From: a virus
Virus record (IMG/VR): IMGVR_UViG_3300042261_001312
Span: 248,001 to 312,000 of that record
DNA length: 64,000 nucleotides
Direction: 5' to 3' (one strand)
Part shown: positions 1 to 26,878 of the stretch, piece after piece
Numbering within the stretch: position 1 is the first letter of the stretch
Layout of the letters: every line of letters begins with the position of its first letter
Position numbers and translations under genes: made by a program
Notes under the pieces: generated by a model
The model's input: the letters and a program-made list of their open reading frames with translations, nothing else
Database searches by the model: none
What the model was told of the DNA's origin: nothing

Positions 1-3
1 GAT

Positions 4-399
4 ATGCTTAAAATTACACGCAAATTAAATGAAGATGTCAGTGCGGAGGATGCTGAAGATAATGAATTAAAAAAATCACCAAATAAAGTAACTATTTTTG
101 ATCAAAAAATTGAAGAAGATAAATTCTTGAATATTTTCAAAGATATGGAGAGTGATGTAAATGTTAAATTCCTTGAATTAGAAGTAACTGATAATCTCGT
201 ATTTTGGGGAGGAACAATTGATGGTATTATTCAATTTACATATGCAGTAACACCGTATGAAGATAAGAATAATGTATTATTTAATTATTTAGAGGACTTT
301 ACACCAGATAATCCACAAAATACGGAAATTGTGAAAAGAGTTGAAGATTATTATAATACATTCGCAAAATATTGGCAAAATAATATAATTCAAAAATAA
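4..399 (+). CDS. hypothetical protein, possibly truncated at window edge
   Basis: An acidic, soluble protein of at least 131 residues. The frame is open back to base 1, so the true start may lie outside the window; the ATG at 4 is the first one visible. I see no membrane segment and no motif I recognise. It ends one base before the next gene's ATG (stop 397-399, next start 401), so the two are probably co-transcribed with the late-type genes that follow. Confidence 0.7.
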   Translation: MLKITRKLNEDVSAEDAEDNELKKSPNKVTIFDQKIEEDKFLNIFKDMESDVNVKFLELEVTDNLVFWGGTIDGIIQFTYAVTPYEDKNNVLFNYLEDFTPDNPQNTEIVKRVEDYYNTFAKYWQNNIIQK

Positions 400-25522: not shown

Positions 25523-25792
25523 ATGATAGTAAAAAATTCTAACGCTACTGCTAGTGATTATGCTTTGGGAATTATTGTAATAGCACTCAGTATAATACTT
25601 TTTGCCATTATTCTTTCAGGTGCAATTGCAAATCCAGTGAAGGTTGTTTTGATTAAAAAAGTATCAAGTGGTGAAGTTTTTACTAAATTCAAAGTGAAAA
25701 AAATAAAAGATGATGTTAGTTACATATGGAGTACATCACGTGCATTTAGTGAGGGTGATACTGTTCTTGTAAAACCACATGAATTGAAATAA
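25523..25792 (+). CDS. small membrane protein
   Basis: 89 residues from ATG at 25523. One strong hydrophobic segment (about 13-35), then a beta-rich Lys/Val soluble part. Last protein gene before the RNA region; coupled to the LemA-like gene by spacing of one base. Not recognised. Confidence 0.65.
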   Translation: MIVKNSNATASDYALGIIVIALSIILFAIILSGAIANPVKVVLIKKVSSGEVFTKFKVKKIKDDVSYIWSTSRAFSEGDTVLVKPHELK

Positions 25793-25799
25793 AAAACAA

Positions 25800-26223
25800 C
25801 AGATAGGCTAAACATTGACCCCTTGCAATGAAATAATCCCAACAATTGCGTTGGTGTAAATAGTAAACATTGCATAAAGATGATAGTCCTGAATTAACAG
25901 GATATTAAGTAATGTTCGCCCTTACAGGCATATATGTAAGACTTAGTGGAGTAATCCTATACGTGTTGTTCCCTTGAGAAAGGAATAACGGAGAGTGGAT
26001 TTCAGATGAAATACCAAAATGCACTACAACACGAATGAGTTCTCAGCAAGATGATTATAACCAACTCTGGAGTATGAGATATCGCAAAGGACAGATAGGT
26101 AAGCCTTAATCATCGTGACCCTAACTCTTAATCCTGTACCCTTGAATGTAATTCAGTTTACAGAAACTCGGATAAGTTCAGCAGGAATTAAATGGGTAAG
26201 AAAATAAGAGAGGGTGCTAACAT
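25800..26223 (+). ncRNA. candidate large structured non-coding RNA
   Basis: No reading frame longer than about 40 codons. The stretch is full of perfect complementary arms: GCAATG (about 25824)/CATTGC (about 25868); hairpins CCAAC/GTTGG, TCCTG/CAGGA and CTTACA/TGTAAG; an 8-bp closing stem CGTGTTGT (25962-25969)/ACAACACG (26026-26033); another 8-bp pair GATGATTA (26050-26057)/TAATCATC (26107-26114); and AGTTT/AAACT. Bases pair over 60-75 positions in nested order. The neighbours are tRNA-like genes, the place where large phage RNAs such as GOLLD and ROOL are found. Strand is assumed from flanking genes. Not matched to any family here. Confidence 0.55.
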
Positions 26224-26392
26224 AGTCGGGTGGTGGAAATGGTAGACACGCCTAATTTAGTAAGCAGAAATTAATCGATCTGTTTATTTTGGGTGAACGT
26301 AATAGTTTCAGGCAAGTTCGATTCTTGCGTTAACATGGGTTGATATCAGGTGATACAAAAATTACATACAGGTTCGATCCCTGTCCTGACTA
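26224..26392 (+). tRNA. class II tRNA-like gene with enlarged anticodon loop and variable arm
   Basis: Acceptor AGTCGGG (26224-26230) pairs with CCTGACT (26385-26391); the D arm reads GTG-loop with GGTAGA-CAC, as in tRNA-Leu; T arm ACAGG-TTCGATC-CCTGT (26368-26384) is canonical. Anticodon stem CCTAA (26251-26255)/TTGGG (26289-26293) would enclose 33 bases instead of 7. The variable arm is closed by GTAAT/ATTAC and holds a second T-arm-like hairpin GCAAG-TTCGATT-CTTGC. Total 169 bases against about 87 for tRNA-Leu. Either intron-containing, recombined, or tRNA-like only; the anticodon cannot be given. Confidence 0.5.
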
Positions 26393-26396
26393 CACT

Positions 26397-26500
26397 GGTT
26401 TAACAACATAAGAGGAAGAAGTCAGATTAGTAGGATGATGCAGTATTGTGGCTACATGTTACGAAACCTCTGAGCAACTCATAAATCTTTGAGTTAAACC
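26397..26500 (+). ncRNA. structured RNA segment between tRNA-like genes
   Basis: GGTTTAAC (26397-26404) is complementary to GTTAAACC (26493-26500), enclosing AGAGG/CCTCT (26411-26415/26467-26471) and a competing hairpin AACTC/GAGTT. It is cloverleaf-like but lacks a proper T arm, so it is not called a tRNA. Confidence 0.35.
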
Positions 26501-26511
26501 TTGCTTATATA

Positions 26512-26630
26512 AGTCAGGTGGCGGAATTGATAGACGCTCCCCAGCCTCCACATAGTGGCGACAAATGGCACGTGCAAGGGGGAAAGAGTAAAATGTGGCT
26601 TTCGTGCAGGTTTGAATCCTGTCCTGACTA
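26512..26630 (+). tRNA. class II tRNA-like gene with enlarged anticodon loop
   Basis: Acceptor AGTCAGG (26512-26518)/CCTGACT (26623-26629) is a perfect 7-bp stem; D arm GCG-loop-CGC (26521-26537) has the Leu-type GAATTGATAGA loop; a 22-base variable region and T arm GCAGG-TTTGAAT-CCTGT (26606-26622) follow. The anticodon stem TCCCC (26538-26542)/GGGGA (26579-26583) encloses 36 bases instead of 7, including a CCAC/GTGG hairpin and GCACGTGC. Total 119 bases. Identity cannot be assigned without knowing whether the insert is removed. Confidence 0.5.
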
Positions 26631-26640
26631 CTTAATATCT

Positions 26641-26715
26641 AGCGAGGTGGTGTAATTGGTAACATATTGGGGGTTAGTACCTGATGGAATGATGGTTCGA
26701 ATCCATCCTTCGCTA
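26641..26715 (+). tRNA. tRNA gene with non-standard anticodon loop
   Basis: 75 bases. Acceptor AGCGAGG (26641-26647)/CTTCGCT (26708-26714), discriminator A; D arm GTGT/ACAT; T arm GATGG-TTCGAAT-CCATC (26691-26707). The anticodon stem pairs as ATTGG(G)/(C)CTGAT, leaving a loop of 8 or 10 bases (GGTTAGTA core) rather than 7, so the anticodon is ambiguous (TAG or AGT are both possible readings). Otherwise a normal tRNA of normal length. Confidence 0.65.
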
Positions 26716-26731
26716 CTAAATTAAAATAATT

Positions 26732-26878
26732 ATGAAAAATAAATTAATAGTTATTGGTTGGATATTCCTAATTGTAGGGTGGATAGTGTTTTTTGAAAAA
26801 CATTATGCAGTTGCATCAGGTATTTTTTTCCTTAGTATTCTTATTTTTCTTTACGGAAAATCGAAAAATTATGAATGA
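26732..26878 (+). CDS. small membrane protein
   Basis: 48 residues, ATG at 26732, with two hydrophobic segments (about 5-21 and 27-41). The next gene starts inside it (26871), which supports translation. Not recognised. Confidence 0.55.
   Translation: MKNKLIVIGWIFLIVGWIVFFEKHYAVASGIFFLSILIFLYGKSKNYE

Follow-up and report, generated by a model that had tools for sequence, protein, structure and literature searches.

A pseudoknotted RNA family of phages with a tentative link to translation

Introduction

Large structured RNAs are uncommon; time and again, examples of unknown function have proved to act as ribozymes, cages or translation factors. The locus described here raises the question of whether a phage gap of about 420 gene-free bases encodes such an RNA, whether that RNA belongs to a known family, and what it might do. 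The gap, which has no plausible gene, lies in a giant-phage record of 327,676 bases (G000). It extends from the stop of an upstream ORF at 25792 to the start of a tRNA-like gene at 26224; positions are those of the window, the whole stretch of 64,000 nucleotides that was analyzed (G000 248001-312000). A sequence-only reading of the window had described this gap correctly and had proposed that it holds a large structured RNA next to tRNA-like genes, with GOLLD, ROOL and, more weakly, a group I intron as candidates.

Results

Homologues of the gap region in phages

The two perfect 8-bp stems named in the sequence-only reading are exact to the letter, and both are conserved, covarying helices, called HC and HF below (Table 1). 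They were said to be in nested order; in fact they are consecutive and neither is nested inside the other. The signal for an RNA in the single sequence is weak. The gap contains three perfect inverted pairs of 8-mers where 1.2 would be expected, and 12% of shuffles have at least as many. Its folding z-score is -2.07; of 100 shuffles, 4 fold as well as the real sequence. The stems alone are thus compatible with chance, and the case for an RNA rests on its homologues.

The first homologue came from blastn, which weakly matched the cultured crAss-like Cellulophaga phage phi14:2 (69% over about 100 bases, E 0.02); in that phage the matched region is annotated with short hypothetical genes on the minus strand. 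Comparison of the window and phi14:2 side by side revealed an identical order of motifs and paired changes in the helices. The annotated genes (gp007-gp009; KC821624.1, 3106-3431) lie over the RNA and are probably spurious. From conservation, the ends of the phi14:2 copy would be expected near AGGTTAAACATTG and GGTGCTAA.

Scanning IMG/VR for TGAGTTCTCAGCAAG and for GTGACCCTACTCTTA gave at least 120 stretches each. With chance matches removed, the family has at least 116 copies in at least 114 loci, phi14:2 included; locus L003 is a near-identical contig of the window's own phage. A match near thymidylate synthase in Pseudoalteromonas phage H101 spans 30 bp at a gene junction and was discarded as due to chance. 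Among the copies examined the length ranges from about 210 to 560 nt, variable arms counted, and is about 420 nt in the window. Two or three copies per contig were observed in L062 (3854-4670), L088, G030 and G039, and those of L062 and L088 are in direct tandem.

Covariation, the pseudoknot and a blind model match

Two alignments were used: A1 (33 copies) for the 5' helices and A2 (37 copies), from which the window and phi14:2 were excluded. Paired cells amount to 92.3% in A1 versus 73.8% after shuffling and to 90.5% in A2 versus 80.5%, an excess that is partly built in since the structure was derived from these same alignments. The double changes (98 double-change cells in A2 versus 21 in shuffles) and the blind matches reported below are unaffected by this. 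Covariation was 0.439 in A1 (0.141 shuffled, 0.03-0.09 slid) and 0.271 in A2 (0.102 shuffled, 0.04-0.09 slid). Seven helices covary strongly, at 2.7-3 times the value of the shuffles and 3-10 times that of the slid controls; in HC all four Watson-Crick orientations occur at several positions. When tested in this way, the copies have core helices in common that carry compensatory changes, the feature by which the family described here is defined.

The loop of hairpin HD (TGAGAA) can pair with TTCTCA in the most conserved strand of the RNA, and this pairing is present in 94.6% of cases in A2. Since the TTCTCA strand varies little, copies with a different strand were sought. Compensatory pairs were found in L262 (TGAGCA/TGCTCA) and in L161 (GGGCA with TGCC, that is GGCA/TGCC), and L151, with TGAGCA and TGCTTC, was counted as compensatory. 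These changes support the view that the pseudoknot is real.

The sequence-only reading had suggested a covariance model from phage homologues as a check. Such a model (R1), built from A2 and run with cmsearch, found both records that were outside its training set: it scored 142.2 bits (E 1e-40) for phi14:2 and 109.7 bits (E 8.7e-31) for positions 25957-26220 of the window. The 5' domain of the window RNA, upstream of this match, is aligned in A1. On 41 phage records R1 recovered all expected loci and a few extra copies. Taken together, the homologues, the covariation and the blind match make us certain that 25803-26220 of the window encodes a structured RNA, and the proposal of a large RNA beside tRNA-like genes is borne out. 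The region is not the remnant of a protein gene; it has no long frame, its helices are conserved with compensatory changes in helices and pseudoknot, and the lengths of its arms vary freely.

Architecture of the RNA

From 5' to 3' the elements are H0, HA, HB with its GNRA tip, HC enclosing HD and HE, the strand AATGAG-TTCTCA-GCAA, HF, GTGA, HG and TGCTAA (Table 1). The base at 25969 has a partner in HC or in HD, never in both simultaneously. The family core consists of H0, HA, HB with the GNRA tip, HC, HD, the pseudoknot, HF and HG; the peripheral arms are interchangeable. We infer both ends of the RNA, with conservation as the sole basis; conserved 10-mers span about -200 to +140 relative to the core motif. 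In the window the companion tRNA-like gene begins four bases past the RNA end.

Table 1. Features of the RNA and its downstream neighbours in the window.
Feature	Positions	Strand	Basis or remark
Whole structured RNA	25803..26220	+	Approximate ends, from conservation limits TAAACATTGA ... GGTGCTAA
H0 hairpin AGG/CCT, conserved loop with TAAACATTGA	25805..25823	+	Double changes at 4/4 pairs (A1)
HA helix, TGCAATG 25824-25830 / CATTGCA 25868-25874	25824..25874	+	Double changes at 6/6 pairs (A1)
Hairpin CCAAC/GTTGG inside HA	25839-25854	+	Read in the window
HB domain, ATA 25883-25885 / TAT 25958-25960	25883..25960	+	98-99% paired, every pair double-changed (A1)
HB-domain hairpin TCCTG/CAGGA	25887-25902	+	
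HB-domain hairpin CTTACA/TGTAAG	25921-25940	+	
GNRA hairpin GGA-GTAA-TCC, in HB domain	25948-25957	+	GNRA loop kept in 33/33 A1 copies
HC helix (first 8-bp stem), CGTGTTGT 25962-25969 / ACAACACG 26026-26033	25962..26033	+	6/7 modelled pairs double-changed; 96.9% paired
HD hairpin, loop TGAGAA 25975-25980	25969..25985	+	Double changes at 4/5 pairs
HE variable arm, ATTTC 25999-26003 / GAAAT 26008-26012	25997..26015	+	Stem read in the window; arm hypervariable, swapped
Most conserved strand AATGAG-TTCTCA-GCAA	26034..26049	+	TTCTCA 26040-26045 pseudoknots with HD loop 25975-25980
HF helix (second 8-bp stem) around variable arm, GATGATTA 26050-26057 / TAATCATC 26107-26114	26050..26114	+	7/8 pairs double-changed
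Conserved linker GTGA	26115..26118	+	Columns nearly invariant in A2
HG helix around variable arm, CCCT 26119-26122 / AGGG 26211-26214 and CTCTTA 26125-26130 / TAAGAG 26205-26210	26119..26214	+	CCC/GGG almost invariant; distal part covaries
Conserved 3' end TGCTAA	26215..26220	+	Nearly invariant in A1 and A2
Companion tRNA-like gene, without normal anticodon arm	26224..26392	+	Rfam tRNA 29.1 bits, 86-nt insert
Second tRNA-like gene, abnormal middle	26517..26631	+	Sequence reading and folding; no call by ARAGORN
tRNA called Leu, same strand as the RNA	26641..26716	+	ARAGORN; Rfam tRNA 43.4 bits

Arm exchange and homing endonucleases

The peripheral arms HE, HF and HG move between copies as cassettes. 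In 61 copy pairs the identity exceeds 85% in one arm and is below 45% in another; L019 and L096, for instance, share only HG, L180 and L204 only HF, and L034 and L182 share HE. T-arm-like hairpins, seen in the arms of L007 and L173, were not enriched over shuffles.

In L123 (6400-7551) and L126 (3598-4453) the pseudoknot strand is interrupted by an ORF for an HNH homing endonuclease, which brings along flanking RNA modules of its own; TTCTCA, or a sequence close to it, stands on both sides of the insertion. The element has a conserved hairpin (ACCC/GGGT core) on its 5' side and, at its 3' end, another 5' half of the RNA, by which the RNA is rebuilt as a chimera; the ORF is intact, decayed or lost. 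Decayed versions were found in L146/L178 and L151, and in L162 an HNH ORF immediately precedes the 3' module of the RNA. Since these elements insert at one site of the RNA, the RNA is treated as a target. Homing elements usually choose conserved, important sites, so that the insertions would fit an RNA gene under strong selection. As a separate observation, the N-terminal start MKNIHVLP is common to unrelated phage proteins, an HNH endonuclease among them (L110, L204 and other neighbour ORFs).

Distribution and genomic neighbours

A search of genome contigs gave no match to the exact pattern and two real matches to a shorter one, L292 (a Sphingobacteriales MAG) and L278, both on short contigs. 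Of the 396 Bacteroidota genomes searched, one gave a match to the covariance model, located on the small contig of L292, and with this single match an origin in host genomes was rejected. The RNA is phage-restricted and virtually absent from Bacteroidota genomes. The small RNA-bearing contig L278 has a partial group I intron at its end (1-179, minus strand).

A tRNA or tmRNA lies within 1.5 kb of 37 of the 114 copies listed, compared with 9.5% of randomly chosen positions in these loci; about two thirds of the copies have no tRNA or tmRNA called by ARAGORN within this distance, some of the loci being short. A tmRNA scoring above the Rfam cut-off is present on 15 of 42 RNA-bearing contigs versus 0 of 33 control viral contigs, which were smaller (about 1.4 Mb versus about 4.7 Mb) and one of which (L262) carries the RNA. 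Several tmRNAs follow the RNA on its own strand at a distance of 8-99 nt (8 nt in L064, 60 nt in G034, 67 nt in L036/L076 and 99 nt in L118). Overall, the distance from the RNA to the next tRNA or tmRNA ranges from a few to hundreds of bases.

Furthermore, tRNA-like genes of a recurring type (GTCAGGTGGCGGAATTGGTAGACGC ... ACAGGTTCGAATCCTGTCCTGAC) occur at most 1.8 kb downstream in 26 of the 114 copies listed. In this tRNA-Leu-like gene the acceptor, D and T parts are conserved and the middle is hypervariable; the whole gene measures 79-167 nt and typically stands just downstream of the large RNA. Examples without a normal anticodon arm are the two in the window (26224-26392 and 26517-26631) and those in L007, L011, L050, L080, L099, L111 and L151. 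An optional module, ATAGCTAAGCTGTGTAAAGCGTCAGAACTTATAATCTGTTAGAAGCTAT, which resembles a tRNA minus its T arm, was seen just upstream of the RNA in L008, L036, L042, L067, L076, L096, L106, L110, L118, L140, L175, L189 and L196. In L008 (1500-1532) and L039 (12429-12461) sub-threshold Rfam matches to DUF805b precede the RNA core by about 1.1-1.3 kb.

A fixed protein partner was sought and none was found; the commonest neighbour cluster occurs in 26 of the 114 loci listed, at scattered positions. This lack of a recurring protein partner argues for action in trans.

Comparison with known RNA families

The family is absent from Rfam 15. A scan of region 25600-26800 with all 4227 Rfam families at E<=10 yielded only tRNA and noise; at gathering and at relaxed thresholds no family matches the RNA in the window or its relatives, and nothing matches it in nine further copies. 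No earlier description was found in the literature searched, which included few subscription papers and preprints.

The identification with GOLLD or ROOL, for which the sequence-only reading had proposed a cmsearch check, fails with the Rfam models. RF02032, the model of the conserved 416-position 3' domain of GOLLD, has no match in the window even at E<=10 and none across the whole of G000 and phi14:2. Like GOLLD, a large ornate RNA of phages and prophages with conserved and variable parts, the window RNA is located in a phage near tRNA genes; the two differ in conserved sequence and helix order. The suggested GOLLD-like setting did hold: GOLLD is present on 4 of 43 contigs with the new RNA (G001, G006, G035 and G037). 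In L139 the new RNA runs from 6342 to 5880 and GOLLD from 4386 to 3961 on the minus strand, with reading frames in between. Being a separate gene on shared contigs, GOLLD has its setting in common with the new RNA, which is not part of it. The Rfam model of ROOL did not match 25600-26800 at E<=10. ROOL is also an RNA of phages and prophages near tRNA islands, with pseudoknots (PMC12286853), but it has about 660 nt, compared with about 420 nt for the window RNA, and another core.

The tmRNA (RF00023) is similar in size, pseudoknotted and a same-strand neighbour of many copies; the new RNA, however, has neither a tRNA-like domain nor a tag frame. ARAGORN found no tmRNA in the window, the Rfam tmRNA model does not match the window RNA, and in phi14:2, L008, L064 and others a separate tmRNA gene stands beside the RNA. 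Theta ribozymes are phage RNAs adjoining tRNAs, mostly in Bacteroidota phages (PMC10879173). They share this adjacency with the new RNA but have about 56 nt in a nested double pseudoknot, whereas the new RNA is several times larger with another fold; no Rfam HDV-type model matches it, and its helix order is unlike theirs.

Group I introns (RF00028) resemble the new RNA in their association with HNH homing-endonuclease genes. Unlike them, the RNA has no match to the catalytic P3-P7 core (none in the window at E<=10) and serves as the insertion target; no exons flank it, as the upstream ORF is complete and a tRNA-like gene follows. The P7 pairing of GGCTA with TAGTC that had been suggested also fails in its details. 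The GGCTA bases belong to H0, and TAGTC is part of a peripheral insertion not found in compact copies. L104, L139 and L182 keep GGCTA but carry TAATC, hence the proposed pair does not covary.

Discussion

We have little doubt that the RNA represents a real new family. It appears to be new as an RNA family. What it shares with GOLLD and ROOL is the setting and perhaps the way of acting; sequence and fold are different. A common site in a non-coding operon, on the other hand, need not imply a common function.

Our proposal for the mode of action is as follows. The RNA is probably co-transcribed with the downstream tRNA-like, tRNA or tmRNA genes, and the machinery that processes tRNA and tmRNA would release it from the shared transcript. 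The pseudoknot, together with a docked GNRA hairpin, would hold the core in a compact fold from which the arms project. The free RNA would then act in trans as a stand-alone molecule, most likely as a scaffold on the translation apparatus (the ribosome, the tRNA or the tmRNA pool) during infection. Its manner of life would be that of GOLLD and ROOL, with an unrelated fold. GOLLD was reported to bind ribosomes in pull-downs (PMC12286853); this precedent from GOLLD and ROOL, together with the neighbours of the RNA, makes a translation scaffold the best single guess. The trans-acting role linked to translation is nevertheless tentative in our judgement, and the statement as a whole, a new pseudoknotted, stand-alone phage RNA family that acts in trans as a scaffold on the translation apparatus, has about an even chance of being correct. 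A more specific version is unlikely, namely an RNA machine for ribosome rescue and tRNA supply in which the core recruits or remodels the ribosome with the phage tmRNA or the anticodon-less tRNA-like partner, the exchangeable arms tune the RNA to each host and homing endonucleases target its gene at the pseudoknot.

By analogy with GOLLD and ROOL, which form RNA-only homo-oligomeric particles according to cryo-EM (PMC12286853), the RNA might instead assemble into a nanocage-like particle, with intermolecular pseudoknot or loop contacts and with arms exposed or enclosed. This reading, which we also consider improbable, is in line with a large, pseudoknotted, phage-borne RNA that neighbours tRNAs, has a conserved core with hypervariable linkers, always keeps its GNRA tip and shares its genomic setting with GOLLD on 4 of 43 contigs. 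However, the RNA is smaller than GOLLD and ROOL, has no similarity to them in sequence or structure, and its pseudoknot can be intramolecular.

A ribozyme that cleaves itself or acts on adjacent tRNA or tmRNA precursors would account for the compact pseudoknotted core, for the nearly invariant unpaired AATGAG, GCAA, GTGA and TGCTAA and for the position of the RNA ahead of tRNA-like and tmRNA genes; the phage theta ribozymes beside tRNAs are a precedent (PMC10879173). We nevertheless rate it as quite unlikely, given the variable distance to the tRNA or tmRNA, the many copies that have neither, the lack of a match to any Rfam ribozyme family and a size far above that of theta ribozymes. Equally doubtful is a counter-defence or decoy RNA with swapped arms that evolve under attack by host defence. 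The cassette exchange of the arms and the restriction to phages point in this direction, but ordinary homologous recombination at the conserved core should also swap arms, and so should homing; no target of the RNA and no similarity to a defence RNA is known, and its conserved part is the core.

The RNA lies upstream of same-strand genes, as would a cis-regulatory leader of the downstream operon, yet this is very improbable, as the downstream genes differ widely, tandem copies exist and the core has no switchable terminator. A self-splicing, group I-like intron or its remnant with an HNH homing endonuclease is the least credible reading and is already mostly refuted: HNH ORFs do occur inside the RNA gene or just before its 3' module, but the RNA stands between complete genes without an RF00028 match, most copies are free of ORFs, and the HNH elements use the RNA as a one-site target.

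Together, these results describe an RNA family that is widespread in phages, with more than 100 loci as a lower bound. One of its carriers, Cellulophaga phage phi14:2, is in culture, which makes the RNA directly accessible to tests of expression and structure and to knock-outs. Through its association with phage tmRNA and with odd tRNA-like genes, the family offers a way to ask why phages carry translation RNAs.
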